A stretch of DNA of 46,427 nt, from the IMG/VR virus record IMGVR_UViG_3300022921_001532, positions 1-46,427 of that record. The stretch is one strand, 5' to 3'. Shown piece by piece: positions 883 to 42,519 of the stretch. This DNA comes from a virus. The stretch's first letter is position 1. Every line of letters starts with the position of its first letter. The translations under genes were made by a program, and so were the position numbers. The notes beneath the pieces were generated by a model. The model did no database searches. It was not told the origin of the DNA and was given only the letters and a program-made list of their open reading frames with translations.

Positions 883-890
883 GAGACAAC

Positions 891-4768: not shown

Positions 4769-5353
4769 TTATCTATCACCTAGTAGCACTGCTACTAGGT
4801 GTATTCTATTTTCTTTACTTGCATTAAATGCAGTGTGTGGTTTAAGCGTGTTTGTTTTCCACCATGTATTTTCTGGTAAAAATTTAACTTCATCCTCAAT
4901 TACCATAAAACAACCGTCTTGTGTTTTTATAGGATAATGTACACGTGGACTTGAGTCTTGATGCCAACTTAAACATTTACTAGGTTGACTTTGCATTAGT
5001 CTTATACGGCCTAGCGTATAATGTTTATTTAATATATTATAAATTTCTTCAAATACTGTTCCTTTAAATTGACTATTTAGAACTGTAAAATCTTGTTCTC
5101 TTAATTGTATTTCACGCTTGGGCACAATGTTTTTAACTCCACCGTCGGGTTGCTCTTCTACAGTAGATTTATCCCAATCATATAGTAAACTACCACACCC
5201 ATAATGTATATTGTCTACAGCAAATGGTGTTGTATTAATGCAAATTTGATTTTGTTTTTTGTGAAACGATATCTTTGTATCAAGTAACTCTAATAATTCA
5301 CTATATGTATTATTGAAGCAAGGTAAATCAAGTTGTTCAAAGCGATAATTCAA
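4769..5353 (-). CDS. Fe(II)/2OG oxygenase-like, Asp/Asn beta-hydroxylase type
   Basis: 194 aa with a full triad near the C-terminus: LSWHQDSS gives H131-x-D133, LKPHTAFN gives H173, and R183 in ENRIHLVAV is the 2OG-binding Arg. QDGCFMVIEDEVKFLPENTWW supplies the intervening barrel strands, as in Asp/Asn hydroxylase-like cupins. This is the last gene of the minus-strand array. Its final codons overlap the 11-bp hairpin at 4777-4801, and it converges on the 103-aa late gene with one base between the stop codons. ATG 5353 overlaps the upstream sulfotransferase-like gene by 17 bases. Confidence 0.7.
   Translation of the reverse strand: MNYRFEQLDLPCFNNTYSELLELLDTKISFHKKQNQICINTTPFAVDNIHYGCGSLLYDWDKSTVEEQPDGGVKNIVPKREIQLREQDFTVLNSQFKGTVFEEIYNILNKHYTLGRIRLMQSQPSKCLSWHQDSSPRVHYPIKTQDGCFMVIEDEVKFLPENTWWKTNTLKPHTAFNASKENRIHLVAVLLGDR
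4777..4801. terminator. Hairpin at convergent gene ends, possible bidirectional terminator
   Basis: A perfect inverted repeat of 11 bp (CACCTAGTAGC / GCTACTAGGTG) with a 3-base loop ACT lies 9 bases after the stop of the plus-strand late gene and inside the last codons of the minus-strand oxygenase gene. A T-rich run (TATTCTATTTTCT) follows on the plus strand; the minus-strand side has only a weak U tract. Plus-strand termination is therefore better supported than minus. Confidence 0.55.
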
Positions 5354-6182
5354 TTTCAGATTCCTTTATATATTCTCTAATATGTGGTATAATTTCCTTG
5401 TAATTACTTATAATTTTTGAATAATCTTTATTAATTTTTAGTGGCACTTTATTTACAATATTTTCCGGTAAGTAATCTTTCCAGTTATCGGTGCCAAGTA
5501 TATTGGTAATAGTAGTATCAATATTTTCTTGGGTGTCTAAATCTTCGTAGTAAGTTACAGTATATGTCCAATTATTTGATTGGATATATTCTTGTAGATT
5601 CCATAATTCAATAGTTTGTGTCAATAGTTCTGGTACACGGTTCAAGAATTCTTGACTAACGTGTATACCAGCATCCATAATACTTGTGTAACGCTCTAGA
5701 TTGTTTGGTCGTGCGTGGAAGAATTTTGTAATGTATGCTACAAGAAAACTACACACGTAATCTTCAATATTGCGGCGCTTAGTTAATACAAAATGTCTAT
5801 CACTGTAAAAATTTAAAACATCTTTATATCCTTCAACGATGTTTATTGTACCTTTAATATTAAATTCATGACCTTGATTTTTAAGATCTTTTAAAATTTG
5901 TATTTTATACAAGTTACGTTCTTTACGTGTGTTAAACACATGTGGATATATGTAATGTACTCTTAGATTCCCCTTGTGTGCTATAGGATATAATTCAGCA
6001 GTATAATATTCATCAACTTTAACATCATGAAATTCAGCATTACGACTATACTCAAGAAATAATTCTGTGTGTCCACCTAAGGGTTTTAAATTATATACGT
6101 TTTCAACATAGAATTGTGCGGTTTCAAACAAAACACTACTACGTGTACGTGGTGCGCTGATAAAGAAAGGTGCTTTATTCAT
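5337..6182 (-). CDS. Sulfotransferase-like protein (PAPS-dependent family)
   Basis: The N-terminal segment FFISAPRTRSSVLFE (residues 6-20) has the form of the 5'-phosphosulfate-binding loop of sulfotransferases (hydrophobic strand, then PR(T/S)xSS). A later helix with FVLTKRRNIEDYVCSFLVAY matches the 3'-phosphate-binding region (R..(N/D)...S). 281 aa, near the usual 250-300. The reading frame is open 26 codons further upstream, but ATG 6182 is preferred because it starts directly before the PAPS loop and overlaps the preceding gene by only 8 bases. One of three such proteins in the window; sulfates a hydroxyl of a sugar, peptide or lipid in the family. The acceptor is unknown. Confidence 0.68.
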   Translation of the reverse strand: MNKAPFFISAPRTRSSVLFETAQFYVENVYNLKPLGGHTELFLEYSRNAEFHDVKVDEYYTAELYPIAHKGNLRVHYIYPHVFNTRKERNLYKIQILKDLKNQGHEFNIKGTINIVEGYKDVLNFYSDRHFVLTKRRNIEDYVCSFLVAYITKFFHARPNNLERYTSIMDAGIHVSQEFLNRVPELLTQTIELWNLQEYIQSNNWTYTVTYYEDLDTQENIDTTITNILGTDNWKDYLPENIVNKVPLKINKDYSKIISNYKEIIPHIREYIKESEIELSL

Positions 6183-7329
6183 AAGTCTTATCACCAGGCC
6201 ATAATGGTAACTTGGTGCCTGGCGCACGTTTGGGTATTTTACTGTCAGCACTACTAACACAACTAGGACTAGTACACTCTACTGGTCCATCAAATAACTT
6301 AAATCCAGTTTCAATATTACCTAATGGCTTGTCGTGACAACTGTAACTACGTTTAATACTTCCGTCTGGTTCACGGATAATAATACCGCGATAGCCACTG
6401 CTACATTCCCAACCGTTAAACTGGTTAAAGTTAAATGCATTAAATCTTTCAGCCTGATCCATGTACCAATACTTTCCTTCTTTGTCACGGAATTCAATCT
6501 GGAAGTGTTGTGGTACGTGACTGTGATCTTCCCAATAAAGCGGATCACTTGTTTTACGGAATGTTGGTTGTGGACGCTCTACGTATTTGTTTTTAACTTC
6601 AGTAAAGCCACGTTGCGGCATACCGTTATGTAATGTTTTTAGTTGTTCCGGCGTGTAACCATCGACCACACGACTCGCAGTAGGATCTGATTGCGGCTTA
6701 AGAGTAACATTGATTCCTTGTTCGTGGAAGAATAGGGCATTTTCCCAATCTCTTTCAAACCATTCTGGAACCATAACTTGATTGATTGTAATTTGTACAT
6801 CATGCTCCTGACAAAAGATGAGTTTGTCTGCAAACTCTTGCATCTTTTCTGGTGTATTAACGTGTTCGGTATGCAAACTCGCCGTAATACTGGCACGGTG
6901 GAATTTGCTTGCATGTTCTACATATGTTTCAAACCACTTCATATTACGACTACAGTTTGACGTCATATGTACGCTTGTGTAATTTGTATTGTCTACATCT
7001 TTTGCCAGATGCGCCATAATATCCAAATAACCAGGGTGAAAGGTAGGTTCACCGCCGCTAAGACTAAAATGAAACGAATTAAAGCCTCTTTCACGTGCTT
7101 GCCTTTTAATTTCATCTACTGTTAATAAACAGAGCTCAGTAGGACGGTGGTCTTTACGGTCGCTTCTTGCGTAGGGCCAACAGTAGGAACATTTGTAATT
7201 ACAAAAACGTCCCAGTAGCCAAGATACAGTAAACATGTCACGGTAGAGCATACTGCGCTGGCCAACACGCACAAGATCATCGTAAGGTATTTGTGTGAAA
7301 TCATATTCACTCCATTTTAAATCAGTCAT
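6175..7329 (-). CDS. Radical SAM protein, core followed by C-terminal SPASM-type cluster domain
   Basis: 384 aa. The SAM-radical [4Fe-4S] site is C43-x3-C47-x2-C50 (FCNYKCSYCW); the SAM-amino-binding motif is GGEP at 92-95. A C-terminal auxiliary cluster domain has C309, C331, C352 and C357, around the turn REPDGSIKRSYSC. This spacing (C-x21-C-x20-C-x4-C) is nearly the same as in the free-standing SPASM protein at 16266-16634, so the two share a subfamily. Unlike most neighbours it has no N-terminal twitch segment. It overlaps the sulfotransferase-like gene downstream and the SDR gene upstream by 8 bases each. Reaction unknown; SPASM enzymes commonly oxidise or crosslink peptides or modify sugars. 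Confidence 0.82.
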   Translation of the reverse strand: MTDLKWSEYDFTQIPYDDLVRVGQRSMLYRDMFTVSWLLGRFCNYKCSYCWPYARSDRKDHRPTELCLLTVDEIKRQARERGFNSFHFSLSGGEPTFHPGYLDIMAHLAKDVDNTNYTSVHMTSNCSRNMKWFETYVEHASKFHRASITASLHTEHVNTPEKMQEFADKLIFCQEHDVQITINQVMVPEWFERDWENALFFHEQGINVTLKPQSDPTASRVVDGYTPEQLKTLHNGMPQRGFTEVKNKYVERPQPTFRKTSDPLYWEDHSHVPQHFQIEFRDKEGKYWYMDQAERFNAFNFNQFNGWECSSGYRGIIIREPDGSIKRSYSCHDKPLGNIETGFKLFDGPVECTSPSCVSSADSKIPKRAPGTKLPLWPGDKTYE

Positions 7330-7888
7330 ACCAGCGGGTTCCTTGCATAGGATCTATGCTTATTTCATTTATACCTACATACTTAGGTTGATCAATTATC
7401 CATTTGATGTATTGTGCAGCCTCGTCAATAGGTAGACAACGTCGGTCAGGGTGTTTATCCTGATTGTTATCCAGTGTACCAAAACTAACAAGAGTTATTT
7501 TAGGGCTTTTAGATCCCCATACTCCGTTCATACCATGCGTATTGCAATAATCACGTAATGCCTTTTTTTCAGCATTATATAACCATGCGCCACCTTTTTT
7601 AACACGGTCTGTCGTACTACCTATACAAATTATGTGCGGTGTGTGACCATTATCGGTACATGTTTTGGTTACTATGTCTAATAAGATTGTTTGATTAAAT
7701 TTCCATAATGCAGCACAAATTACAATAATATCGTGTTCTAATGCTGATTGGGCAAATTTTCTTTGATCAGTTGCGTCTGTTAATTCAAAACCAGTACTAC
7801 GACTTGCAAAAGTCATTTGATCTGGAAATAGTTTTCCAATACTAGCACTTAGTCCAATTTTACTGTTGCCACTTATTAATATTTTCAT
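7322..7888 (-). CDS. Short-chain dehydrogenase/reductase-like NAD(P)-binding protein
   Basis: 188 aa, shorter than classical SDRs (about 250). The N-terminal strand MKILISGNSKIGLS contains a degenerate dinucleotide loop (GNSKIG at 7-12). The strand IICIGSTT gives S91, and WLYNAEKKAL supplies the YxxxK pair Y104/K108, so the Ser-Tyr-Lys catalytic set is complete. The short C-terminal part (residues 125-188) leaves little room for a substrate-binding lobe. Likely reduces or oxidises a carbonyl/hydroxyl on a small substrate such as a sugar nucleotide. It overlaps radical SAM genes on both sides. Confidence 0.65.
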   Translation of the reverse strand: MKILISGNSKIGLSASIGKLFPDQMTFASRSTGFELTDATDQRKFAQSALEHDIIVICAALWKFNQTILLDIVTKTCTDNGHTPHIICIGSTTDRVKKGGAWLYNAEKKALRDYCNTHGMNGVWGSKSPKITLVSFGTLDNNQDKHPDRRCLPIDEAAQYIKWIIDQPKYVGINEISIDPMQGTRWYD

Positions 7889-9077
7889 TTATTTTACCTT
7901 CTCTTATCCACTCTGAAACTAGTTCTGGGAAGAGTTCGTTTAAGTTTGTGTTTCTTATCTTGTCAAGTTGATTGTTAAACATCAAGAACTTGTTTATCAT
8001 ATGAGGATCACTTGAGTGATTTAATTCTGTTAATAAATCTGACAAATAAAAGTTGTTGGGATACTTCACTATAAGTCTATTTACCTGTTCTTGACATTGT
8101 TGTTTTATACTTTCTGGTGCATGCCTTGCTTGTAGATATTTTGGTCCCGTGAGCACACGATATTCAATCCAATCCGCATTTTTATTTTCTGTAATTTCGT
8201 TACACCATTCATAAAATCTTTCAACATTTAATATATTATACAGTTGAAATGCGCCATTAATAGTCAATAAAAATTTATTATTATTGCGGTTTATTTCCAT
8301 CAATTGCTTAAGGTTATAATTTAAATCAGAAAAAGTAAAATTATATCCTCGCATATATGTATAATAATCGTCAGTGCTATCAACACTTACATTAATGTGT
8401 AATTTTTTTAACTGATTTAGGTTTTGTATTTTTTCAATGTCTATTTTACTACCATTAGTATTAATAGTAACTATAATATTATCTAGACTACAGTAGTTTT
8501 TCAATTTTTTAAAAAAATCAAATATGCTGTTATCCATAAATGGTTCACCGCCAGTAATCCAAATTTGGCGTATATCACTTAGTTCAGGACCATATTCATA
8601 TAAAAATTTATCAACATCAACTTGTTGTTTTGCTGGAACCACGCTTTTCTGAAATTCTTTTTCAAGTTGCATATAATCTGGGATCCACGCATTACTAAAT
8701 CCTGGGCCACACATTCTACATTTAAAGTTACATATGTTATTAAAATTCATGTATAGATGATATATACGGTTTCTATCAATATTTTTATTTTTTTCATATA
8801 ATCCAGTTTCTCTGAGATATTTTTCTTCTCGAGCTAACCATTTAGTTCTCTGACTGTTTAATCCATGTTTTTCTTTAAAAAAACAACTTTCACATCCAAT
8901 TTCATCCCACACACCATTTAACATATTATTTCGCAGTGTTTTAAACTTTTCATTACTATATGTAAATTTTTCTATAGGCCCCATTGGAGTCATTGACATC
9001 ATACATCGACTTATGTAATTACCAGGATTAACAGTCAATGTAACAAAAGGCATTGGACAAAATGTATCTTTACTCAT
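7860..9077 (-). CDS. N-terminal-twitch radical SAM protein
   Basis: 405 aa. N-terminal auxiliary-cluster candidates are C7, C25, C62 and C65; this member has a single Cys (RCMM) where relatives have CC. The core site is C116-x3-C120-x2-C123 in NNICNFKCRMCG, followed by GFSNAW. GGEP is at 176-179. The YNI motif (LYNILNVERFYEW) and the C-terminal tail LDKIRNTNLNELFPEL are both present. The 3' end overlaps the SDR gene by 29 bases, one of the longer overlaps here. Substrate unknown. Confidence 0.8.
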   Translation of the reverse strand: MSKDTFCPMPFVTLTVNPGNYISRCMMSMTPMGPIEKFTYSNEKFKTLRNNMLNGVWDEIGCESCFFKEKHGLNSQRTKWLAREEKYLRETGLYEKNKNIDRNRIYHLYMNFNNICNFKCRMCGPGFSNAWIPDYMQLEKEFQKSVVPAKQQVDVDKFLYEYGPELSDIRQIWITGGEPFMDNSIFDFFKKLKNYCSLDNIIVTINTNGSKIDIEKIQNLNQLKKLHINVSVDSTDDYYTYMRGYNFTFSDLNYNLKQLMEINRNNNKFLLTINGAFQLYNILNVERFYEWCNEITENKNADWIEYRVLTGPKYLQARHAPESIKQQCQEQVNRLIVKYPNNFYLSDLLTELNHSSDPHMINKFLMFNNQLDKIRNTNLNELFPELVSEWIREGKINENINKWQQ

Positions 9078-10224: not shown

Positions 10225-11702
10225 AAAGTTGGCCTTCCTATTTTATTCCAATTTGTTAGTTTTTTCTCTAGGAAGTGCATTTGTTTCTCATCCCAGCGAA
10301 CATCATAACCAAGTCTATTTGCAACTTCACTTAAACGTTTTCTTCTGCTAACACGTTCACCAAAATCTAAACCAGGTACTACTTTACTTACCCAGTATGA
10401 ATTTCCTTCGTATACATCCATTTCAGCCAGTGGGCTTCCGTCTAATACACCAAGTGTTTGGCCTAGATTGATATCTCTAATACATCCGTTTATGTCTGGT
10501 TCATGTGTAGTACTACTATTTCTGTCTGCATAGTATTCTAAAAACTTAATATTTTCCTGAAAATCTTCTTCTGTTTCGGTGGGGTAACCAACAATAAACA
10601 TAGCAGTGACCCGTACATCGTTTTTAATTAATTGATCTATACAGAAATACATGTCATTGTTGTTAAATTGTTTATCCATATGATTACGTACATTTTCACT
10701 AGCACTTTCAATACCAATACTTGCCCAACCCATACCTGCTTTACGCATTAGAACATAGTCTTCAGCTGAGCATTGTTCTTCACTTCTAACAATAAATTGT
10801 CCTCCCCATATTATTTTGTCTGATGGCTTGGGGTTTTTTTCATGATAATCAGCAAGAACTTCGCATAATTCTCTAAATGCTTTCATACTACCATTAATCA
10901 AACTGTCACTAAAAAAGTGTGTTTTACTCTTGTAAAGTTTTTTATTTCTTATCATTTCTTGTGCTATATTCGCACCACTGCGATATCTAAACTTTTTCCA
11001 AAAGGCACCAATATCACAAAAACTACACCGACGTACACACCCACGTGAACCAGTTAGAGTAATTTTCTTAATTTCACCATAATCAGTATAATAGTCAGTA
11101 TAGTCTGGAAAAGGTAAATTGTCAAGATCATTTATTTGATTGTATGAAACACTATTAATACCAGGATAATCCATATTTCCTTTAAGTAATTCAACCAATG
11201 ATAATTCTCCTTCACCGTCGATATAGTAGTCAATTAACTTTTCTTCTAACATATGCTGACCGAATTCTTTCTTATCACCTAATCCCAATCCAAGCCCAGT
11301 ACCGCCGATAACAATTTTACTGGCTGGCATCAACTTTCTAACTAGTTCACAAAAAATTTTACTGCTTTTTTGACTGTTTTGTGTAAACACGCTAACGCCA
11401 ACCCAAGTTGGATTAAGTGGCTTAATTTTTGATACAATATAATCTGTATAAAATTTTATAATTTGGTTGTATATTTCTTCATCATTGGGGGTGGCATACA
11501 TTCCACTGTGCCAATCTATCAACAGATAACTGTCAATTTTTTTGTTTACATCTTTGCCAAAATGTTCTTCACTGTCTCTAACCAAGTCAAAACATCTACT
11601 GGAAAACCCATGAGGATTTAATGCACCTTTGAGATAATAAATCGCAGGTGCTGGTACACGTGTTTCCATAACTGGAGTACTAACTAATGCTATATCAATC
11701 AT
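10221..11702 (-). CDS. B12-binding-domain type radical SAM protein
   Basis: 493 aa. The N-terminal ~190 residues look like a cobalamin-binding Rossmann domain: IALVSTPV strand, VGVSVFTQN, and IVIGGTGLGLG at 130-140. The DxHxxG motif of base-off corrinoid binding is absent, as in many members of this class. LPFPDYTDYY leads into the core, C222-x3-C226-x2-C229 (GSRGCVRRCSFCD). A long C-terminal TIM-barrel part has GIESASE and FIVGYPTET, characteristic of the class. Members methylate unactivated carbons or perform ring rearrangements. A 2OG oxygenase gene precedes it with an 8-base overlap. Confidence 0.8.
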   Translation of the reverse strand: MIDIALVSTPVMETRVPAPAIYYLKGALNPHGFSSRCFDLVRDSEEHFGKDVNKKIDSYLLIDWHSGMYATPNDEEIYNQIIKFYTDYIVSKIKPLNPTWVGVSVFTQNSQKSSKIFCELVRKLMPASKIVIGGTGLGLGLGDKKEFGQHMLEEKLIDYYIDGEGELSLVELLKGNMDYPGINSVSYNQINDLDNLPFPDYTDYYTDYGEIKKITLTGSRGCVRRCSFCDIGAFWKKFRYRSGANIAQEMIRNKKLYKSKTHFFSDSLINGSMKAFRELCEVLADYHEKNPKPSDKIIWGGQFIVRSEEQCSAEDYVLMRKAGMGWASIGIESASENVRNHMDKQFNNNDMYFCIDQLIKNDVRVTAMFIVGYPTETEEDFQENIKFLEYYADRNSSTTHEPDINGCIRDINLGQTLGVLDGSPLAEMDVYEGNSYWVSKVVPGLDFGERVSRRKRLSEVANRLGYDVRWDEKQMHFLEKKLTNWNKIGRPTL

Positions 11703-12432
11703 TGAATGTGTCTACTAAATTTTTGTAACTTTTTATCATACGGCTTTTAAATTTATCACCGTAATGTCCGTGTACAATCATATGTATACGTGGTTCTGTA
11801 CTTCTGTTAACTACTGTATGAATATTACTTATATCAAGTATACGTATTTCTCCAGGCTGCCATGGCACCATACCATGACCATCCATTACAAATATATGAC
11901 CTTCAGGATTGTTTAAACTAATGTTATACGCACATAGTCCAGGAATATCAGTATCTCGATGCGGAGTAATATAACCGCCTGGTTCTAATAACATAAATCT
12001 CACACGATTATACAAATCAAAATTTAATTCTTCTTTAAGCCACTGCGTTGTTATAGGACACAAGTCTGCTAATTCTGTCCAGTGATAATCAGGACAATTT
12101 TCCTGTGTGTATTTGCCTTCATTTATTAGTGCTTCACGTGGTGCAGTGTCTTCAACAGCCGTGCCGTGTATTGCCATACTAGCCCATCCAGGACTGGTAC
12201 TACCGCGGTGCTTTACAAATAAGTGTTTTTGTTTAATTGCTTCTTCAAACATTTCCTGATAAGGTATAGGCATATCTACACGTAAACTAGGAATTCTACT
12301 TTCTTTCATAATCCAATTGGATTGAGCATGTATGTTTTCATCTAGATCATTGGGGAATACCGGCACGGTTTTGTAGTGTGCAACGTCTATATTTCTATCT
12401 ATAATGTCTATAACATCTTGTGATTCTGTCAT
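11695..12432 (-). CDS. Aspartyl/asparaginyl beta-hydroxylase-family Fe(II)/2OG oxygenase
   Basis: 245 aa. The complete set of ligands is visible: PGGYITPHRDTD gives H158-x-D160, ISNIHTVVN gives H205, and R215 in TEPRIHMIVHG anchors 2OG. The lead-in MLLEPGGYITPH is diagnostic of the Asp/Asn hydroxylase family. The frame opens with TTG at 12435, but ATG 12432 is preferred because it overlaps the preceding TGA by one base (TGATG). The N-terminal half is divergent and presumably sets substrate choice. Encoded between a B12 radical SAM gene and a large unknown; a target shared with one of these is possible. Confidence 0.78.
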   Translation of the reverse strand: MTESQDVIDIIDRNIDVAHYKTVPVFPNDLDENIHAQSNWIMKESRIPSLRVDMPIPYQEMFEEAIKQKHLFVKHRGSTSPGWASMAIHGTAVEDTAPREALINEGKYTQENCPDYHWTELADLCPITTQWLKEELNFDLYNRVRFMLLEPGGYITPHRDTDIPGLCAYNISLNNPEGHIFVMDGHGMVPWQPGEIRILDISNIHTVVNRSTEPRIHMIVHGHYGDKFKSRMIKSYKNLVDTFND

Positions 12433-13817
12433 CAAACTCTCCAGGGCAATTTATTATACCATTCATCACCAAAGTCTATTTCTTCTAGTTTACCTTCAAG
12501 TCCACGAGTAGTAAATGGATTAGTGCCTTTATAGTATATATTTTCGGATGATATAACTTTATTTACCCTGTTGTGAAACTTAATAAAAGCTTCTTTCATT
12601 TCTCCTACACTAAACAATACACTTGTTTTATGATAGTGTAATATGTTGCTTAGATAAATTAGTGTTGTATCATCATCCAATTGCTTAAATACACCAGTTG
12701 CACTACTGGAGTCAAAAATATTTAAATATTGTACTACATATTGACTTTTGTTTTTATTCCACCATTCTACAAAATCTGGACCTAAATCATTAATAAGTTT
12801 GTCGTTGTAATCTAAAAATCGGCGGCCATGATGTGTTTCATTTAAAAATTTTAAATCATAATTACTGGTTACAAAATTCTTGTAGTTCTTGCCGTCCCAT
12901 TTATTGATAATATTTTGCGCAAAGTTTAATGCTGTATTACTATAATCGTATATTAATACTTTGTCTATACCCAACAGATAGGGATAATAATAAGGTAAAA
13001 TTCCGCCTGCTGGGATTGCTATTTGTTTAAAATTAATATTCTCTGTTACATAATTAAATTTTTCTATATCTATTGTTTCTGTATTAGCAACAAACGCCGT
13101 GTCTGGATTAATAAACCTGGCAATTTTAGATTTTGCAACACTTGTTTCTTCTTTAACTGTTGGATATAAATATTCTTTTTTTCGTCTCACGGGTTCCTGC
13201 CAAGGACTCATTATACTATTTGTTTTACATAACTTATCTAATATATTCCAGCCACGGCCTCGACCTATAAAGGTTGATTCAGCTAGGGTTGCATTAACAT
13301 GTTTAGGTGTGTAATGGTCATGAAAATTTTCGTTACTGCGTTCGATTACACCACCTTGCCACTCAATATTAGTATCTTCAGGCTCTATAGTAATTACATT
13401 ATTAGCCAATGCCCATACTGCATCTATTAGAAAAAACTGTGAATGTATATAAAAACTTCCGTTGCCGTAATCTAATATGTGTCCAATAAATCTGGTATCT
13501 TGTATTTCGTTTAATTGATCAATCATAGGATCAAATATTTCGTGACCAAACATCAAAAAATTACCCAACTCTACGTATAAAACATATCTACATTGTTTTA
13601 CAGCTGCAGACACTAGTGCTTGCTTTAAAGACGTAACGGCTGATACTTTTAAATTTTGTAGAGTTAAATTTAGGTAATAATAGTCTGCAATATTTTTACA
13701 TGCCATTTCCACAAACGGGTCTGCAAATTTCATATCTTTATTATATACTAAGCATATTAATATATTGTCAAGAGATTTGCTATAATATTCTATTTCTTTA
13801 TCATGACTGTATGTCAT
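12432..13817 (-). CDS. Large protein of unknown function, possible glycosyltransferase-like plus methyltransferase-like halves
   Basis: 461 aa, not assigned to a family with certainty. The first ~170 residues have alternating strands and helices (ILICLVYNK, CRYVLYVELGNFLMFG) reminiscent of a GT-A glycosyltransferase, but no clear DxD is seen. Residues ~250-400 look like a Rossmann fold: FKQIAIPAGGILPYYYPYL, then DKVLIYDYSNTALNFAQNII (a strand ending in an acidic residue, as for SAM ribose), and TTLIYLSNILHYHKT as a later strand. The C-terminus GDEWYNKLPWRV is polar-aromatic. It overlaps radical SAM and oxygenase genes at its two ends, so it belongs to the same transcription unit. Confidence 0.5.
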   Translation of the reverse strand: MTYSHDKEIEYYSKSLDNILICLVYNKDMKFADPFVEMACKNIADYYYLNLTLQNLKVSAVTSLKQALVSAAVKQCRYVLYVELGNFLMFGHEIFDPMIDQLNEIQDTRFIGHILDYGNGSFYIHSQFFLIDAVWALANNVITIEPEDTNIEWQGGVIERSNENFHDHYTPKHVNATLAESTFIGRGRGWNILDKLCKTNSIMSPWQEPVRRKKEYLYPTVKEETSVAKSKIARFINPDTAFVANTETIDIEKFNYVTENINFKQIAIPAGGILPYYYPYLLGIDKVLIYDYSNTALNFAQNIINKWDGKNYKNFVTSNYDLKFLNETHHGRRFLDYNDKLINDLGPDFVEWWNKNKSQYVVQYLNIFDSSSATGVFKQLDDDTTLIYLSNILHYHKTSVLFSVGEMKEAFIKFHNRVNKVISSENIYYKGTNPFTTRGLEGKLEEIDFGDEWYNKLPWRV

Positions 13818-21109: not shown

Positions 21110-21133
21110 TTTTTATCCTATGAATTATAATAG

Positions 21134-30522: not shown

Positions 30523-30523
30523 T

Positions 30524-33329: not shown

Positions 33330-33330
33330 A

Positions 33331-33936: not shown

Positions 33937-34771
33937 TTAATGTAGCCCTTATTATCTTACTATTATACAATACATCTTCAATATTGTCAACTTGACTTAC
34001 CATGTTACCAATTGGTATTCTTCCAATATTATTAGGTGTAGGAGGTACTGGCAAGTAATCTAAAAATTCTTGTAAATTAAATAAGTCTTGCCATTGATTC
34101 AATGGATCTACTTCCATTGCCAATGGTATTCTATCACCCAATGGTTGCATTTCATTATAAGTTGGATCATCATTGTCCCTGTAGGCTTCTCTGTAGTCTT
34201 TTCCTAAAATACGTTTGGCAAGATAAACATCATACTTTTCTGTTGTCATCAAATCAAGCCATTCATCTGTTAGTTTCATAGCACTGTTATTATAATACTC
34301 TCTACTTACCTGTTGGTCCCAATATATATGTCTGCATGATTCTGGTAATGGGTTAGTTCCGCCAGGCAACAATGTTTCGCATTGGTGACATAGACTATTA
34401 AGTTTTCCAATGGTTGTCACATCGTTATGATATTCTGGATAATCTTGATTTCGATGTTTATCCTGTACTAATTCAACACACCAATGGTGCATCTTATTAA
34501 GTAACTTTTGCATACTTGGAAAGTCACTATAATCGTTGATAATAAACTCAGGACCGCCGTATGCTTTAACTCCAGTAACTAAAACGTCAAATAATTCGTC
34601 AAATTTTTTCTTGTCAAAACTATCACTACGATTTTCTAGTCTAGATATTTCAGTTTCTTCAAGTGGTAGACTACAAAAAAGATTTGCCCATTCTCGTATT
34701 AAATGATGATCTACGAGTTTTATAGTCAATATTTTTCCAGTGTCAAGATGTAACTTCATGTCCATTGTCAT
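33923..34771 (-). CDS. Protein of unknown function, paralogue of 32346-33329
   Basis: 282 aa from ATG 34771; in-frame ATGs at 34765 and 34759 are also possible, the last giving the best match to the paralogue's start, while AAAGG lies 9 bases before 34765. Shared features with 32346-33329 are the N-terminal TGKILTIKLVDHH strand pair, ILGKDYREAYRDNDDP in the middle and PTPNNIGRIPIGN at the end. CHQCETLLPGG (a CxxC) and HIYWDQQVSREYY are not in the paralogue. No known catalytic motif. Confidence 0.6.
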   Translation of the reverse strand: MTMDMKLHLDTGKILTIKLVDHHLIREWANLFCSLPLEETEISRLENRSDSFDKKKFDELFDVLVTGVKAYGGPEFIINDYSDFPSMQKLLNKMHHWCVELVQDKHRNQDYPEYHNDVTTIGKLNSLCHQCETLLPGGTNPLPESCRHIYWDQQVSREYYNNSAMKLTDEWLDLMTTEKYDVYLAKRILGKDYREAYRDNDDPTYNEMQPLGDRIPLAMEVDPLNQWQDLFNLQEFLDYLPVPPTPNNIGRIPIGNMVSQVDNIEDVLYNSKIIRATLNESI

Positions 34772-35120
34772 CAACCTTTACTATTGGGGGGTCACTACTG
34801 TGCCATTTACGTGTAAGCATACTTACAAATTTCATATCTTCTAATGCTTCAAAACTATGAGCTGTACCAATTGGTATACGTATACTATCACCTTCATATA
34901 ATATTTTTTTAATAGGTTTATCCGTAAGTTCAGTAAACATACAACAGCCATGTACTACTAGCATATACTCATGGAAGTGAGGATGATAATGATACCCTCT
35001 GATTTCTCCCTTTTTAATAGTCATTAAGTTATATTCTACTACCGCTTCGTCAGGATAAAAACTTCTGATTACTCCCCTATGGTCTTCAAAAACTTCTGGT
35101 TCTAAATATTCACAATTCAT
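34743..35120 (-). CDS. Cupin sugar-isomerase-like protein (FdtA/WxcM or RmlC-like)
   Basis: 125 aa, a single cupin domain. FEDHRGVIRSF at the start and EIRGYHYHPHFHEYMLVVHG (~residues 38-57) resemble RmlC/FdtA, with His residues H43, H45, H47, H49 as possible base and metal ligands. KKILYEGDSIRIPIGTAHSFEAL is the second cupin motif. Family members isomerise or epimerise dTDP-4-keto-hexoses. The neighbourhood (DegT, dehydrogenase, epimerase) supports nucleotide-sugar work. The start overlaps the UDP-glucose dehydrogenase-like gene by 4 bases. Confidence 0.72.
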   Translation of the reverse strand: MNCEYLEPEVFEDHRGVIRSFYPDEAVVEYNLMTIKKGEIRGYHYHPHFHEYMLVVHGCCMFTELTDKPIKKILYEGDSIRIPIGTAHSFEALEDMKFVSMLTRKWHSSDPPIVKVDDNGHEVTS

Positions 35121-35911
35121 TTTCTCATACCCTCAAAAACTGTAGTTTCAAATTTATTATTTTCAGCATCTAATAATTTAAAAAATTCATATGGTAGTTC
35201 TAATGCTTCGCATAGTTTTTGCATTGCTAACACATCCTTGGGCAAGCATGCACCACCATAGCCACGTAAATCTTTACTTACATCTAAATACTCATCTGGC
35301 ATACTGTTATTGGTTAAAAATGCGTGTTTAACAACATCATAATCTGCATTTATTTTTTCGCATATCTCAAAAAGCACATTAGCAAAAACAATACGAGTAG
35401 CATTAAATGTATTATGATAATACTTCATTATTTCTGCTTCAGTTGGTGTTACACGCATTTGACTCTTGGGTAAATCTCCATGACTGCGTATAACAACATA
35501 ATAATGATTAATATTTTCAGTACCCACTAATAATAGTTTATGATCAAAAACAAAATCATATTCTGCACTGCGCTCTTTTAAAAATTCAGGAACAAATACA
35601 ATACGATCTGTATTGTATTTTTGGTTAAGTTTATTAGTATGTCCAGGCTTAATTGTACTTTTTATAGCACAAATACCAGTATAATTATTTTCAAATAGCT
35701 CGTGTACTACACTGTCTACAATTTCAGTATTACAACTACCATCTTGATTACTTGGCGTAGGAACACAAATATAACATATTTCTGTGTTTAGTACGTCAGA
35801 TATACTGGTGCCTAAAATTAAATCATGTACACTAACATTGTATCCACATTTTTCAAAACCTGACTTGCAAGCATTACCTACAACTCCTAAACCAACAACA
35901 CCTATTTCCAT
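35117..35911 (-). CDS. UDP-glucose/GDP-mannose 6-dehydrogenase-like protein, short form
   Basis: 264 aa against about 400-450. The NAD domain begins MEIGVVGLGVVGNACKSGF (GLGVVG 7-12), with YICVPTPSN and AIKSTIKPGHT (76-92). The central domain has KYYHNTFNATRIVFANVLFEIC with K163 and N167. The active-site Cys is C222 in RGYGGACLPKD, so the catalytic thiol and following Lys are intact. The C-terminal UDP-binding domain is missing. Normally oxidises UDP-glucose to UDP-glucuronate (or GDP-mannose) with two NAD+. In the short form the sugar-nucleotide specificity cannot be told. Confidence 0.8.
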   Translation of the reverse strand: MEIGVVGLGVVGNACKSGFEKCGYNVSVHDLILGTSISDVLNTEICYICVPTPSNQDGSCNTEIVDSVVHELFENNYTGICAIKSTIKPGHTNKLNQKYNTDRIVFVPEFLKERSAEYDFVFDHKLLLVGTENINHYYVVIRSHGDLPKSQMRVTPTEAEIMKYYHNTFNATRIVFANVLFEICEKINADYDVVKHAFLTNNSMPDEYLDVSKDLRGYGGACLPKDVLAMQKLCEALELPYEFFKLLDAENNKFETTVFEGMRK

Positions 35912-36420
35912 TTTACACTACATCCAAAACTAGGGTTGGGTTCCCAATTGATTGGTTTATTTACTAGTGTTAAATCCAATGCATGACGTAAACTACTGCC
36001 AGTGGGCATTAAGTCGTTACTAGTGTGACTTGGATCTAGTTCACCATGATATACAATAATACCATCAGTGTCTACTACATAAAACTCAGGTGTGCATACT
36101 GCACCATATGCTGTTGCAATACCTTGATCGCCATCAAAAATATATGGACATTGTAAATCCCACCGTTCCATAAAATCCTCCATGTATTCAGGAGCATCTT
36201 CTGGATGACTATCTTCAGTTGTTGGACTTGCATCATTACTGTTAATAGCAAATACTTTGACTCTATCTTTGTAATCTTTTACTAGTTGACTGATTGCTGG
36301 CATCCTGAATAGTACATATGGACAATGATTACAAATAATCATCACTAAGTTTACATGCCCACGCTCTGCAGGATAAAACGCCTGCTTTCCAATCATATTG
36401 TCGCTTGTTTCTAAAGACAT
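35902..36420 (-). CDS. Thioredoxin-fold (AhpC/TSA-redoxin) family protein
   Basis: 172 aa from ATG 36420, which overlaps the upstream stop by 10 bases; a start 10 codons earlier is possible but would overlap 40 bases. VNLVMIICNHCPYVLFRMPAI gives the redox pair C30-x2-C33 (CNHC) at the end of the first strand. VFAINSNDA, PYIFDGDQGIATAYGAVCTPEFYVVD (cis-Pro T-P after a Cys) and VVYHGELD-like strands complete the fold. Cytosolic, no signal. May supply reductant or protect the Fe-S enzymes; the context with sugar-nucleotide enzymes gives no direct partner. Confidence 0.75.
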   Translation of the reverse strand: MSLETSDNMIGKQAFYPAERGHVNLVMIICNHCPYVLFRMPAISQLVKDYKDRVKVFAINSNDASPTTEDSHPEDAPEYMEDFMERWDLQCPYIFDGDQGIATAYGAVCTPEFYVVDTDGIIVYHGELDPSHTSNDLMPTGSSLRHALDLTLVNKPINWEPNPSFGCSVKWK

Positions 36421-37256
36421 TTTTCTAATCCTGTTTTTAAATCTGTCCATATAAAGTCAGGGACTAAACTTTTTAATTTTGTTAAATCAGGTGCCCTTCT
36501 TGGAGTACTGCCAGGCGGGCTATCTACTAATTCAAAATAGTCGGGTAGCTGCAAGAGTTCTACAATAATATTTGCAACGTCTATAATTTTAGTTTCAGTT
36601 GGATTACCAATATTAATAATTTTGTTTTCTTCTTTCAATACAGATGTTGTTAATTTTACTGCATCCTCAACATAACAAAAACTGCGAGTGTCACTCCACC
36701 CAGGTAGTTTATAGTCTCCTGTTTTAACACGATCTATAAACTCTGGAATAAAATGATTTTGCTGTCCTGGACCATATACATTGTGGTACCGTAGTATTGT
36801 ATATGTGTTACCACGTTCTACACTATGACTAATAACTGCACTTTCCATTGCAATTTTTCCACTAGCATAACACCAACGTGGATTTGTAATATCTTCCACT
36901 GTCAGTGGAACGTCTTCCGGTGTAGGAATTGTCGCCCATCCCTGATTGACAGTTCCAGCATATTCTTCACTACTTCCAGCATATACAAAATGAGCATTAG
37001 GGTAGCGTTTAAGTAAATTCATTGTTGGTGTAACAATACTATCAATAACACTAAATGGAGTGCTATAGAAATTCTTTGTACTATTAAATGCTGCTAAGTG
37101 TACAACTGTATCAATATCATCAGGAAGTACATTTACAAATTTAGTATTACTGAGGTCTCCATTGTAATCACAATTTTGTTTGTCAACTGTGATACAGTTC
37201 ATGTATTTTTTTAAATGGCTACCTATAAATCCATTTGCTCCTGTTAATAATATCAT
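36411..37256 (-). CDS. NAD-dependent epimerase/dehydratase (extended SDR)
   Basis: 281 aa. GANGFIG at 6-12 binds NAD, VVHLAAFNSTKNFYSTP is the family's (L)AA element, VYAGSSEEYAG carries S95/S96 and WCYASGKIAMESAV gives Y130-x3-K134. HNVYGPGQQNHFIPEF and RSFCYVEDAV follow, as in UDP-glucose 4-epimerase-type enzymes. All catalytic residues are present. Probably interconverts a nucleotide sugar feeding the glycosyltransferases of this region. It is the first gene behind the candidate late promoter at 37281-37291 and has a TGGAGT ribosome site. Confidence 0.85.
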   Translation of the reverse strand: MILLTGANGFIGSHLKKYMNCITVDKQNCDYNGDLSNTKFVNVLPDDIDTVVHLAAFNSTKNFYSTPFSVIDSIVTPTMNLLKRYPNAHFVYAGSSEEYAGTVNQGWATIPTPEDVPLTVEDITNPRWCYASGKIAMESAVISHSVERGNTYTILRYHNVYGPGQQNHFIPEFIDRVKTGDYKLPGWSDTRSFCYVEDAVKLTTSVLKEENKIINIGNPTETKIIDVANIIVELLQLPDYFELVDSPPGSTPRRAPDLTKLKSLVPDFIWTDLKTGLEKCL

Positions 37257-37280
37257 GTATACTCCATTAACTACTATGTT

Positions 37281-37291: not shown

Positions 37292-38513
37292 CAATACTTT
37301 TAAGAATTTGTATAAATCTTTCTTTTTGGTCTTGTTTAAAGGTTACCTTTAAATGATTCCAATTGTAAATGTTTTGTTCGTGAATTTTCTCTAGTAACTC
37401 TGGAGTCTTTTCAATTTCTATTATTTCCATTAGACTTGATCTACACTTTATTAGTCTGTCTATCATGTACGGCTCTTCGTCATAATCTTCACTAAACAGC
37501 CAATCCCAGGTTTTAAATCCCCAATCATTAAGCTGTTTTACTATGCCCTGTTGCCCAACCCATATTGTAGGTTGTTGATACACAAATGCTCTAAAGGTTG
37601 CTTCACTTATGAATAACCCACTGCTTTGAATGTCTGTTTCAGTTATAACACTAGCAAAGCTGGCGTTATACCAAGGTAAACTACTGACAGTTGTATCTGA
37701 ACCAGCGCACCAGTTACTGTCATGATCTGTAACATCTAAAACATAAGGAGTGTGTAATCCTACGTCTGCTAAATCGTGCCACATGTCAGATATTTCTTTG
37801 TCAGTCCATTTAAGACTGGCCATATGTTCTTGATAAGTTTGCATAATAGTAATAAACGCACGTGCCTTATCTAAAAAACCCCAGCCGTCTATTCTGTCAG
37901 CAATACTAATAAATCCATGAGGAGGGTGCATTAGATATGGTTTATTTTTTAATAACCAAGTCCAAAATACTCTGCCAGGTTTCATAAAACGCTGTAAGCA
38001 AATATATTGAGCAACAAAATTGCGTTCAGTGATTGGTTTTAATGTCCAGTCTTTGGGGTCAATTTCTGATTCTACATGTCTAAGAATATCATGTCCATAG
38101 CAAGTAAACCCAAACGTTCTAATTTTTTTACTTTTTTGTCGCTGTTGTACTCGTAGATCTCCGCTTACCCATACAACATTATTATAGGGTATATTTTCTT
38201 TATCACAAAACTGTTCAAGAGTTAAATCAAAGTCATGTGAGTGTTCTATCGGATAATCATTAGATGGATTTGTACTTTCTTGGAATGTACTAAAAACAAT
38301 ACGACATTTGCCTTGTTGTGCATCTATTAACACGTTCTTGGGAATGTATGGAGAAATGACGCCGTTAATCGCAGGATGACTATCTGGATCTTGGTTTAAC
38401 TCACACCAATGTATATAAGTGCCAGACTCTGATTCAGATAGTTTATAAGTTTTTAGAAGTTCTGGAATTAAGGGACATTGCCAATGCTTATTCCTGTCAA
38501 TCTTTGGAATCAT
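37284..38513 (-). CDS. Uncharacterised protein, possible glycosyltransferase relative
   Basis: 409 aa. No firm family. The C-terminal region has FISEATFRAFVYQQPTIWVGQQG, LNDWGFKTWDWLFSEDYDEE and later LIKCRSSLMEIIEIEK. This order (SE.TF...F..QP.I.VG..G....L...GF.T....F.E.YD) recurs in phage and marine bacterial proteins annotated loosely as glycosyl- or fucosyltransferase-like, in which the SEKTF part is thought to lie in the sugar-nucleotide site. N-terminal half is unassigned. The start overlaps the upstream radical SAM gene by 17 bases. Confidence 0.5.
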   Translation of the reverse strand: MIPKIDRNKHWQCPLIPELLKTYKLSESESGTYIHWCELNQDPDSHPAINGVISPYIPKNVLIDAQQGKCRIVFSTFQESTNPSNDYPIEHSHDFDLTLEQFCDKENIPYNNVVWVSGDLRVQQRQKSKKIRTFGFTCYGHDILRHVESEIDPKDWTLKPITERNFVAQYICLQRFMKPGRVFWTWLLKNKPYLMHPPHGFISIADRIDGWGFLDKARAFITIMQTYQEHMASLKWTDKEISDMWHDLADVGLHTPYVLDVTDHDSNWCAGSDTTVSSLPWYNASFASVITETDIQSSGLFISEATFRAFVYQQPTIWVGQQGIVKQLNDWGFKTWDWLFSEDYDEEPYMIDRLIKCRSSLMEIIEIEKTPELLEKIHEQNIYNWNHLKVTFKQDQKERFIQILKSIVE

Positions 38514-39807
38514 GCCAGTAGTTATCCCAAATATATTTTAGCTCTGGAAAAGTACTTCTAGTATCTTCATTACGCAATAAATCTAACCTGTGTGTATGCT
38601 TACACATTTCAATCAGTTCTTTTTCATTTGATTTTTCACTGTGCATCCATTTAATAGCAGTATGAATAGTACTATAAACTGGACTATGTGGTTTAACACG
38701 TAACCAGTCTAAATGGCTTAGCCATATATCTTCTACTTCCTTTTTCATATGATCAGGAAAATTTTGAATATTATAAAAACTTGGATTTTGTAGTATGTTC
38801 CAGAACATGCTCCACTTAGTTACCCATCCCTTTTCAACCCACTGTCTATTTAAATCACACACAGTATAAGCATTTAAAATCTGTATAGTAGGACTTATTC
38901 CTACTTTTACATGTGGGGTTTCTTTATGAATTAGTTGCATGTTTTGTTCTATTTCTGGCCATACAGTATCTTTACGTATGTTTTCTGCACGTTTACCGTA
39001 TGTGTCGATACTGCCAGCACAGTATACATTACTAAAATGTTTCCACATGTCAACAACATTTGTTTGTTTGTACTTCATAATACTTAAATTACTACTGTAT
39101 CTTATATGTACATCGGTAAGTTTAAGCTCTATTAATTTGTTTAGTATACGATAATGTTCTTCCATGAACAAAGGCTCACCACCCGCAAAATATATTTCTT
39201 GCATATGTGGTAGATACTCTTCCAATCTATCAAGTAACTTTTTACTGTCCTTTACGCCATGAATAATTGCAGTTGCGTTTGGATCCCCAGTACCGTAATT
39301 ATGAATTTCATGTTCTGTACTTAACTTTTTTGCGTCAGCAAACCATTTACTACTGCTAAAGTGGCCGCACATTTTGCAACGCATATTACAAATATTACTA
39401 AACCTGATATCTAAATATATTGGTTTTGCTTCAGTAGCATTGCCTTGGTCGTCTGTGCTTAGTACCATTGGTTTAGATGCTTCATGAAACTTTGTTATTG
39501 CGTCATGTCGTAAACTAAATCCACTCTGATCTTCTTTTTTATAACATGTACTACAATGTGGTACTTTTTTATCATTAACTAACGATTTGCGCAATGTACG
39601 CATATTATTGCCTTGCCAAATATCATCAAAATCTTCTTGATTAATATTACCAATCGGTCTTTTCCAGTCCCCAATACAACAAGGCAACACATCACCAGTT
39701 GCAGTTACATGAATATGACTCCATAATAAAGGACAATAACTTTTAGTTTGTTTAATCATTTCATCAGGAGTTAAATTATCCTGTATTAATTTTTTAATAT
39801 CTGTCAT
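38497..39807 (-). CDS. N-terminal-twitch radical SAM protein
   Basis: 436 aa. A helical N-terminus of about 20 residues precedes C25 (SYCPLLWSHIHVT), C43-C44 (VLPCC) and C85-x2-C88 (VPHCSTC). Core C140-x3-C144-x2-C147 (SNICNMRCKMCGHFSSS). GGEP is at 209-212 in IYFAGGEP. AENIRKDTVW, IQILNAYTVCDLN and the tail LDLLRNEDTRSTFPEL follow the family, and SIDTYG replaces the usual SIDG/SVDS strand end. One base separates it from the next upstream gene. Substrate unknown. Confidence 0.83.
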   Translation of the reverse strand: MTDIKKLIQDNLTPDEMIKQTKSYCPLLWSHIHVTATGDVLPCCIGDWKRPIGNINQEDFDDIWQGNNMRTLRKSLVNDKKVPHCSTCYKKEDQSGFSLRHDAITKFHEASKPMVLSTDDQGNATEAKPIYLDIRFSNICNMRCKMCGHFSSSKWFADAKKLSTEHEIHNYGTGDPNATAIIHGVKDSKKLLDRLEEYLPHMQEIYFAGGEPLFMEEHYRILNKLIELKLTDVHIRYSSNLSIMKYKQTNVVDMWKHFSNVYCAGSIDTYGKRAENIRKDTVWPEIEQNMQLIHKETPHVKVGISPTIQILNAYTVCDLNRQWVEKGWVTKWSMFWNILQNPSFYNIQNFPDHMKKEVEDIWLSHLDWLRVKPHSPVYSTIHTAIKWMHSEKSNEKELIEMCKHTHRLDLLRNEDTRSTFPELKYIWDNYWHDSKD

Positions 39808-39808
39808 A

Positions 39809-41323: not shown

Positions 41324-42519
41324 TTACTTAATGCCTTTTTTCTCATTGATGAAAGATTCCCTAATCTTATATCAGGTCTGTCAAATATTGGATCTCTTAA
41401 AAATTCTAAAAACTGTTGATGTTCTGGATGATCCTCTTTCCAAATACATTTATGATTATATACTTCTGGACTCCAAGTTCCCCAATCACTCACCATGCTA
41501 AAACAAATTTCATTATGGTTAGGAAAACTGCTGTCAATAAGTTCTATGTATTGTTTCATTTCATGATAGTTATCTTGTTGAACAACAAAGTCGTAAAAAA
41601 TTCTAAAATTAGGAAACTCAACATGCTTGCTATCTAAAAACTTACAATTGTTTTGCAATAAATCCCAGTCACCATTAAGCCTTGTTTTATTTTCATAAGT
41701 TTCTTTTGTAGCTGCATCAAAACTTATTCTACAATCTCCAAGATTTTTATGAATTTTGTGTATACGTTCCCATAGTTTAGGTGTATACATTACTCCATTA
41801 GTTTGCATATTAATGGTAAGATTGGGGAAATCACTACCATTAATATTATATAGCATGTCTCTATATATTTTACTTGCCCATGGATCTCCACTACCAGTAA
41901 CAAAAATACCAAAATTTCTATCTGTTGGTGTAGTCAAAAATGCTTCAACTAACTTATCATTGATTTGTTTACGTTTATCATATAATGGACCTTCAGTATA
42001 AAGTAGTTTTGTAGTTCTGCAACTAGGACACTTTAGGTTACAACTTTCATCATTACTAAAATTTATATAAGTAGGTAATTGTTCTGATATTAGACTTTTA
42101 GATATTAGAGCTTGCTTTTCATGTGGCAAGACATATTCTTTACCTTGTAAAATATCAGAAACATTATTAAGATGATCGCCTTGAATCATAGGACAAAAAG
42201 CAGTCTGACAGTAATCCCATTTTCCAGTAAAAACCTGTTTACGTAGCTCTTGTGCTTTTTCGCCATTCCATATTTCTTCTATAGAATTTTCTAAAATATT
42301 TCCAATTGGATAAGGAAGCCAACTTGGACAACACATCCAACACCGGCCGTGCATATCTACTTCCAACCAGGTATACAATTTGTTACAATATTTTCCATTT
42401 AAATCAGGCTGTTTAAAATCTAAACCTTTGGTATCTTTAATCCATACATTACCAAATAATGGATGTCGCATATGCCCAACCGCATTAGCAGCCCAGGGTT
42501 GGTGTAGTACTTTTGACAT
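41320..42519 (-). CDS. Radical SAM protein with N-terminal Cys segment, GSGDP variant
   Basis: 399 aa. N-terminal Cys set C45 (GKYCNKLYTWLEV), C60, C63-C64 (RCWMCCPSW), C104 and C109 (CQTAFC, spacing x4 instead of x2). PIGNILENSIEEIWNG is the SPASM-like turn. Core C160-x3-C164-x2-C167 (DESCNLKCPSCRTTKL). In place of GGEP it has GSGDP at 209-213, the form found in other SPASM-linked enzymes. ISFDAATKETYENK strand and no FPEL tail. It is therefore the most distant of the N-terminal-cluster group here, nearer to general SPASM radical SAM proteins. Confidence 0.78.
   Translation of the reverse strand: MSKVLHQPWAANAVGHMRHPLFGNVWIKDTKGLDFKQPDLNGKYCNKLYTWLEVDMHGRCWMCCPSWLPYPIGNILENSIEEIWNGEKAQELRKQVFTGKWDYCQTAFCPMIQGDHLNNVSDILQGKEYVLPHEKQALISKSLISEQLPTYINFSNDESCNLKCPSCRTTKLLYTEGPLYDKRKQINDKLVEAFLTTPTDRNFGIFVTGSGDPWASKIYRDMLYNINGSDFPNLTINMQTNGVMYTPKLWERIHKIHKNLGDCRISFDAATKETYENKTRLNGDWDLLQNNCKFLDSKHVEFPNFRIFYDFVVQQDNYHEMKQYIELIDSSFPNHNEICFSMVSDWGTWSPEVYNHKCIWKEDHPEHQQFLEFLRDPIFDRPDIRLGNLSSMRKKALSK

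Follow-up and report, generated by a model that had tools for sequence, protein, structure and literature searches.

We analyzed a stretch of viral DNA of 46,427 bases (IMG/VR record IMGVR_UViG_3300022921_001532; the whole stretch is called the window below), which has linear ends, no hallmark gene of its own, and an island of sixteen radical S-adenosylmethionine (SAM) genes. We found that this island has a conserved core of five genes, namely an N_Twi radical SAM enzyme (19709; genes are referred to by their first coordinate), a SPASM radical SAM enzyme (21141), a third radical SAM enzyme (6175), a GT-A-like glycosyltransferase (23377), and a methyltransferase-like protein (22452). The core recurs in phages and again, in shuffled order, in bacterial contigs, and thus a pathway is more likely than random cargo. 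The sixteen radical SAM genes exceed what is expected by chance, and cultured relatives carry only 0–6. We tentatively favor the reading that the island is a variable, soluble tailoring pathway, which most likely decorates tail proteins or a glycan that they bear.

Radical SAM genes of the window

The search of the window with PF04055 gave 17 matching stretches, which correspond to 16 distinct open reading frames (ORFs), all within 6175–42519. Each of these ORFs contains exactly one CX3CX2C motif, and the motif is intact in all of them. Fourteen exceeded the Pfam cut-off; the other two (28098–29498 and 41320–42519) were below it but still significant, and both match NF033640 (N_Twi_rSAM). Twelve of the 16 ORFs have a GGEP box where one is expected downstream of the motif, and one has GGES there; GGEP is absent from both B12-type genes (10221 and 26027), 21141, and 41320. 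An earlier note on this DNA, made from the letters alone, had described sixteen radical SAM genes with an intact CxxxCxxC site, mostly with GGEP, and the profile and motif searches bear this out. However, the note had placed the start of the island at 4769, which is too early, because the radical SAM genes begin at 6175 and 4769–6260 holds a 2-oxoglutarate (2OG) oxygenase and a sulfotransferase-like ORF.

Ten of the 16 ORFs passed the cut-off of NF033640, which is 170 bits (7860, 9070, 13801, 14996, 17376, 18523, 19709, 28098, 38497, and 39809; 18523 barely), and 6175, 10221, 16627, 21141, 26027, and 41320 were under it. In these ten proteins, the N-terminal cysteines C7, C25/C26, C75, and C78 (numbering of 9070–10224) are near-invariant, and this segment is similar to the twitch domain of BtrN (E 2e-5; residues 183–256 of 4m7t). 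The ten proteins thus have the extra cysteine ligand set of SPASM/twitch type and are predicted to bind an auxiliary cluster. Since the segment is N-terminal whereas the twitch domain of BtrN lies at the opposite end, the auxiliary domain precedes the radical SAM core in these proteins instead of following it. No function for the NF033640 subfamily was found in the literature searched.

Among the remaining ORFs, 10221 and 26027 are nearest in NCBIfam to B12-type radical SAM enzymes (PhpK, BchE, and C-methyltransferases of ribosomally synthesized and post-translationally modified peptides, RiPPs), but they do not reach the family cut-offs (95 and 113 bits versus 600 for the PhpK/B12 radical SAM equivalog), and a B12-binding fold is only implied for them. 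The others are SPASM-, MoaA-, or viperin-like in NCBIfam, with no family membership. Viperin-like antiviral nucleotide synthesis was considered and rejected, as no protein reached the NF038283 cut-off of 180 bits (6175 and 16627 scored 41 and 58). In addition, two ORFs are pieces of the fold: 16266–16634 is the SPASM-like tail of an enzyme split in two, and 29482–30522 is N_Twi-like without the motif.

The island in large phages and its place beside tail genes

The same island was found in 80 related viral loci (fetched at up to about 21 kb each) and in 12 large viral contigs. There were at least five radical SAM genes in 68 of the 80 loci, and 9–19 radical SAM matches in each of the 12 contigs, all of which hold a relative of 19709. 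This gene is the most conserved of the island (median identity 82% in the 80 viral loci and about 60% in Bdellovibrionota). Among the 45 long loci (20.5 kb or more, with contig ends making the counts lower bounds), 21141 was present in 45, 22452 in 38, 22234 (encoding a 73-amino-acid protein) in 35, 23377 in 33, and 6175 in 31, always on the strand of 19709.

The related contigs span 137–383 kb, and five of the seven large relatives tested have a strong match to T4 gp23, the gene by which a T4-type jumbo phage is recognized. No gp23 gene lies inside the 46-kb window, which is linked to these relatives by synteny. The phage-like nature proposed for the window is supported through its syntenic relatives but not through any hallmark gene of its own. 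The capsid protein of one relative (G003) is 65–70% identical to capsids of Sinorhizobium phage Phosso, Vibrio phage 2.275.O, and the GAP32/CBB/121Q group.

Three large contigs are colinear with the window (136–176 kb of G003, 148–207 kb of G004, and 215–237 kb of G001). Orthologs of 45296, 44479, 42523, 23377, 22452, 21141, 19709, and 6175 keep their order in them, and most interior genes differ. For instance, 42523 and 23377 are adjacent in G001, and in the window they lie about 18 kb apart, with further radical SAM genes as well as sugar and sulfation genes between them. Furthermore, 29 of the 51 neighboring gene pairs of the window recur elsewhere. No pair of the 25–35 kb stretch was seen elsewhere, although G004 holds the nucleotide-sugar block (same gene set at 162–169 kb). 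The recurring pairs and the colinearity reject, as far as testable, the possibility that the window is a chimera of unrelated phage fragments.

In the three fully read jumbo-phage contigs (G001, G003, and G004), which have a T4-type capsid gene, the island begins directly after the tail module and on the same strand. This module comprises a giant virion structural protein (phrog_10938), a 206-amino-acid protein, and tail collar/fiber proteins, followed by a gene of 115 amino acids; the assignments come from PHROG matches for G003 and from synteny for G001 and G004. The ORF cut at the right end of the window is the apparent homolog of the 115-amino-acid gene, and its orthologs immediately precede those of 45296 in the relatives, where the tail module is followed first by the glycosyltransferase-like orthologs of 45296 and 44479.

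The equivalent place is occupied by NUDIX and tail-sheath genes in Vibrio phage 2.275.O and GAP32, and by a radical SAM cassette in the cultured jumbo phages Phosso and Atu_ph07 (Agrobacterium). The latter two have tail genes homologous to those of our group (Phosso also the capsid), and their tail module is followed by 3–4 annotated radical SAM genes. However, their cassette is a different one, whose members weakly resemble peptide maturases and have no BLAST match to window genes. Parts of the Phosso cassette (L212:22653–30802) match an Oligoflexia contig (L163). The number of radical SAM matches was 0 in 2.275.O, 1 (weak) in GAP32, and 4 each in Phosso and Atu_ph07 (genomes of 349–490 kb), 5 in KVP40, and 6 in K566 (245–490 kb with these included). 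When searched against cultured phages, the first 25 kb (megablast) and three window proteins (tblastn) gave nothing closer than distant radical SAM matches in Vibrio phages.

Two phages with many radical SAM genes (12 and 8) have already been published, and phage-borne tailoring or decoration genes are a known kind. The marine T4-like environmental genome TARA_ERS488813_N000010 (183 kb) encodes an A-type Fe–S carrier along with 12 radical SAM genes (PMC5332604, 2017). It resembles our group in habitat, T4-like type, and gene number, but the passage on these genes interprets them as Fe–S metabolism and mentions neither an island or core nor a tail-side position or a cellular counterpart. In Aeromonas phage vB_AerVM_332-Vera, eight radical SAM genes lie within a large structural cluster that also has five tail-fiber genes, an arrangement that its authors term highly unusual (PMC12390700, 2025). 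This is an unrelated jumbo phage of phiKZ/Chimallivirus type, which we liken to ours by the gene count and place described in the paper. The unrelated cassettes of Phosso and Atu_ph07 and the structural-cluster genes of 332-Vera suggest that radical SAM genes probably came to adjoin tail genes more than once. The earlier note had stressed the density of the island correctly, but it overlooked the tail-side position, the cellular counterpart, and these two printed cases. In the literature searched, with subscription papers and preprints outside its scope, we found no paper describing the conserved core, its modular turnover, the polyphyly, or the Bdellovibrionota counterpart.

The counterpart in Bdellovibrionota

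A genome scan for N_Twi genes, using one genome per species and three sequences as query, returned mainly Bdellovibrionota contigs. Ten genomes of Bdellovibrionota or near kin had 11–37 N_Twi matches each, which were clustered, and none of 14 control genomes had a match over the cut-off. Most of the five core genes lie close together, in an order that varies, in L137, L138, L139, L140, L143, L150, L178, and L185, and the 6175 orthologs in Bdellovibrionota contigs were 55–66% identical. Flanking genes read by eye (nuo and atp around L171, htpG- and maf-like genes beside L143) indicate a chromosomal location, and L139 is part of a 936-kb contig. Like the window, these clusters combine most of the core with dense N_Twi arrays; they differ from the phage islands in the absence of tail genes and of the 73-amino-acid protein and in the shuffled order. 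In one contig (L141), the window order 17376-16627-16266-14996 is repeated, split enzyme included. The shuffled order with the clustering kept argues for joint function.

Some short contigs of metagenome-assembled genomes (L134, L159, and L174) carry the phage-only gene of 73 amino acids and are probably misbinned phages. These and, less clearly, L165 and L172 look like phage fragments; the five are labeled Gammaproteobacteria, Neisseriaceae, Rickettsiales, Acidimicrobiaceae, and Chloroflexi.

What the island may make

We know of no phage that runs a long radical SAM pathway. In the reading that we favor, the island would be a variable tailoring locus just downstream of the tail genes, in a group of marine jumbo phages that are uncultured and have a T4-type capsid gene. 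The core glycosyltransferases, the methyltransferase-like protein, and three radical SAM enzymes would build or attach one common unit. Exchangeable radical SAM enzymes of N_Twi and B12 type, 2OG oxygenases, and sulfation and nucleotide-sugar enzymes would then alter this unit by C–H functionalization, methylation, hydroxylation, and sulfation, and each phage would thus have a different decoration. The carrier would most likely be a virion adhesion protein (tail or tail fiber) or its glycan, modified in the cytoplasm before assembly, and the selected trait would be adsorption and host range. We infer that the island enzymes act in one pathway and, less firmly, that the carrier is a tail protein.

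Several observations bear on the substrate. The Asp/Asn hydroxylases suggest a protein, and the sugar and APS (adenosine 5′-phosphosulfate)-kinase-like genes suggest a glycan. Both hints, as well as the tail-side position, would fit if a virion adhesion protein carried a decoration that is glycan-like or on a side chain. In Foldseek searches, the nearest folds of the 19709 model were the peptide-modifying CteB, SkfB, and SuiB (probability 1.0, template modeling [TM] score about 0.35), and the AlphaFold model of 42523 (predicted local distance difference test 89) gave a GT-A match to TarP (probability 0.98, TM 0.32). In addition, a hydropathy scan found membrane-like stretches in 0 of 22, 1 of 51, and 2 of 56 island proteins, those of the window being only the desaturase and a DUF2061-like protein. 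Almost no membrane proteins were thus present, which suggests that the chemistry is cytoplasmic.

On the other side, the TM-scores are low (about 0.3), and these matches do not settle the substrate. The bacterial core clusters have no tail genes alongside, and the substrate therefore need not be a phage protein. Moreover, the radical SAM genes of KVP40 adjoin nadV and topoisomerase genes rather than tail genes, extra radical SAM genes lie distant from the island in G001, G003, and G004, and the turnover of the interior is equally expected of a cargo hotspot.

A wider idea, which we consider rather unlikely, is an undescribed class of radical SAM tailoring pathway for adhesion structures, used by giant phages on their tails and by Bdellovibrio-like predatory bacteria on the cell surface, with modular swapping giving each phage a distinct decoration. 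Should tails or glycans be decorated by the product, phage–host recognition would have a new layer of chemistry, and a large number of radical enzymes that are so far untapped would come into view (about 9–20 per phage and 11–37 N_Twi genes per Bdellovibrionota genome). These ideas are directly testable in the cultured phages Phosso and Atu_ph07, whose cassettes at that position are smaller and of another type, and in cultured Vibrio phages that have a few N_Twi-like genes, among them QD01 and CZ01 of a Vibrio natriegens laboratory strain.

It is unlikely, but deserves attention, that a coherent pathway makes a glycan or glycolipid of the infected-cell surface, for superinfection exclusion or receptor change, and not a virion decoration. 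The glycosyltransferase-like, nucleotide-sugar, C-methyl-, and APS-kinase-like genes of the window agree with this, as do a GT2 (glycosyltransferase family 2) gene and an outer-membrane-type gene near the bacterial chromosomal core and the match of the N_Twi auxiliary segment to BtrN, which acts on an aminocyclitol. Since the core can evidently work in bacteria without tail genes beside it, the idea keeps some weight. However, the island lies beside tail genes, and the hydropathy scan, the only search made for this, revealed no flippase-, polymerase-, or lipid-linked-transferase-like protein in the islands, as a lipid-linked surface polysaccharide locus would have.

Quite unlikely, in our view, is a hotspot of independently useful cargo genes with no shared product beyond a small core. 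In pairwise BLAST, no two of the 16 radical SAM genes exceed about 30% identity, and each has a closer match outside the window. In a tree of 198 N_Twi proteins, built with fasttree and with many long branches that make single placements unsure, the ten window genes stood at ten separate places, none sister to another, and virus and bacterium labels alternated at least 19 times by forced switches. Recent tandem duplication is rejected by the same results. The polyphyly and the interior turnover suggest that some genes may be independent cargo, and the 25–35 kb stretch and the desaturase, nitroreductase, and carbamoyltransferase genes that also occur would fit this as well. Against it stand the repetition of the core in phages and bacteria and the clustered N_Twi genes of each Bdellovibrionota genome, whose numbers resemble a system needing many. 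The earlier note had proposed a pathway of its own with one step per enzyme on a shared scaffold; the recurrence of the core supports the pathway, and the one-step-each scheme is a weaker proposal in view of the polyphyly and turnover.

An RiPP-type pathway, in which a ribosomal peptide becomes a cofactor or small bioactive product, is improbable. The candidate precursor would be the 73-amino-acid protein (22234–22455), whose gene overlaps both its methyltransferase-like and SPASM radical SAM neighbors. It is highly conserved, with 31 invariant columns in 19 sequences, and in G004 the gene has moved about 185 kb from the island, yet it is kept. The RiPP maturases nearest to the fold of 19709 also agree. 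However, the protein is conserved over its full length with no leader/core pattern, its gene is missing from the chromosomal core clusters, and no transporter or protease was seen. The protein had no match in PHROGs (searched with the G003 homolog) or in cultured phages. Finally, hypermodification of nucleic acid (DNA or tRNA) with radical SAM steps is highly improbable: phage DNA hypermodification is known to involve such steps as well as glycosyltransferases, and a thymidylate-synthase-like ORF was seen by eye near six islands, but no dUMP/dCMP hydroxymethylase-like synthase or DNA kinase was among the Pfam matches of most window companion ORFs, and gene content differs between close relatives.

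Companion genes and minor observations

The features of the window are listed in Table 1. The earlier note had named 2OG oxygenases and sulfo-, methyl-, and glycosyltransferases together with nucleotide-sugar enzymes as companions. Pfam confirmed three Asp/Asn hydroxylases, TauD, DegT, the UDPG/GDP-Man dehydrogenase, the epimerase, the C-methyltransferase, and the APS-kinase-like protein. However, the sulfotransferase-like ORFs and the glycosyltransferases of the window had no Pfam match, and their identities come from a motif seen by eye and from one model plus motifs, respectively. PHROGs searches with window genes were not informative, and PDB searches for 22452 and a glycosyltransferase-like profile gave nothing useful.

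Table 1. Genes and gene blocks of the window (all coordinates in the window)
Position	Strand	Feature	Evidence
2127..2786		Asp/Asn-hydroxylase-type 2OG oxygenase	PF05118
2858..3703		TauD-type 2OG oxygenase	PF02668
4769..5353		Asp/Asn-hydroxylase-type 2OG oxygenase	PF05118
5337..6260		Sulfotransferase-like ORF	
6175..7329	-	Radical SAM enzyme, viperin/MoaA-like core region; conserved core	PF04055 E 6e-15
7860..9077	-	N_Twi radical SAM enzyme	NF033640 234 bits
9070..10224	-	N_Twi radical SAM enzyme	NF033640 405 bits; 78% identity to G003, 51% to Bdellovibrionia L135
10221..11702	-	B12-type radical SAM enzyme (PhpK/BchE-like)	PF04055 4e-18; TIGR04479 E 2e-27, under its cut-off
11695..12435	-	Asp/Asn-hydroxylase-type 2OG oxygenase	PF05118 52.7 bits
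13801..15009	-	N_Twi radical SAM enzyme	NF033640 183 bits
14996..16276	-	N_Twi radical SAM enzyme	NF033640 350 bits
16266..16634	-	Separate SPASM-like segment of split radical SAM enzyme	STM4011 C-terminal match E 7e-7
16627..17379	-	Radical SAM core of split enzyme	PF04055 2e-17
17376..18575	-	N_Twi radical SAM enzyme	NF033640 300 bits
18523..19716	-	N_Twi radical SAM enzyme	NF033640 172.7 bits (cut-off 170)
19709..21109	-	N_Twi radical SAM enzyme; conserved core	NF033640 423 bits
21141..22241	-	SPASM-type radical SAM enzyme; conserved core	PF04055 2e-12
22234..22455	-	Conserved 73-amino-acid protein, between methyltransferase-like and SPASM radical SAM genes	
22452..23420	-	Methyltransferase-like protein; conserved core	Read by eye from sequence
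23377..24081	-	GT-A-like glycosyltransferase; conserved core	Aligned with 42523 family
24254..25288	-	Possible sulfate-activation genes: nucleotidylyltransferase-like 24254–24667, DUF2061-like 24664–24870, APS-kinase-like 24842–25288	CTP_transf_like under cut-off; DUF2061 by eye; PF01583 30.4 bits, over cut-off (AAA_18/AAA_33 score alike)
25285..26037	-	Sulfotransferase-like ORF	PRxGS motif by eye
26027..28105	-	B12-type radical SAM enzyme	PF04055 2.5e-17; TIGR04479 E 1e-32, under cut-off
28098..29498	-	N_Twi radical SAM enzyme	NF033640 241 bits; PF04055 E about 1e-4
29482..30522	-	N_Twi-like protein without CX3CX2C	NF033640 37 bits, C-terminal half only
30524..31732	-	Sugar C-methyltransferase-like	PF08484 92 bits, PF13489, PF08421
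31717..32355		Sulfotransferase-like ORF	
33331..37256	-	Nucleotide-sugar block: DegT 33331, cupin 34743, UDPG/GDP-Man dehydrogenase 35117, peroxiredoxin 35902, epimerase 36411	Pfam
38497..39807	-	N_Twi radical SAM enzyme	NF033640 361 bits
39809..41323	-	N_Twi radical SAM enzyme	NF033640 275 bits
41320..42519	-	Divergent radical SAM enzyme, N_Twi-like layout	NF033640 59 bits (under cut-off); PF04055 E 4e-5
42523..43509	-	GT-A-like glycosyltransferase	AlphaFold and Foldseek
44479..45303	-	Glycosyltransferase-like protein, DxD-type motif	By eye
45296..46186	-	Glycosyltransferase-like protein, DxD-type motif	By eye
46190..46426	-	3′ part of small gene separating tail genes from island in relatives	Resembles G004:148387–148758 by eye

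The core and SPASM-like ORFs of the split radical SAM enzyme (16266–17379) overlap by 8 bases. The same split was found in bacterial contigs L141 and L153, and a fused-length homolog occurs in the phage-like L134. The motif-less N_Twi-like ORF 29482–30522 adjoins an intact N_Twi gene and is perhaps a partner or scaffold subunit. Most of the possible sulfation cassette (24254–26037) was otherwise seen only in one viral locus (L003). At 160–4374, a fatty-acid desaturase and several oxygenase-like genes lie on the opposite strand, mostly in common with viral L017 and partly with bacterial L140.

In the relatives, A-type Fe–S carrier genes were found in G001, G002, and G005, and a gene of the methylthioadenosine/S-adenosylhomocysteine nucleosidase family in G004; these would support radical SAM turnover in some of them. 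Flavodoxin as electron donor was looked for in the relatives and not found. A PP-loop-type ATPase (SGGADS motif by eye; e.g., L076:12867–13724) is among the commonest companions, occurring in 55 of the 80 loci; none was found in the window, and the bacterial arrays have a QueC-like one (L170). In addition, a G003 gene (L095:15720–18284) encodes a 23377-type glycosyltransferase fused to about six tandem degenerate glycosyltransferase-like repeat copies (854 amino acids), and L067 encodes a relative of it with 1058 amino acids.

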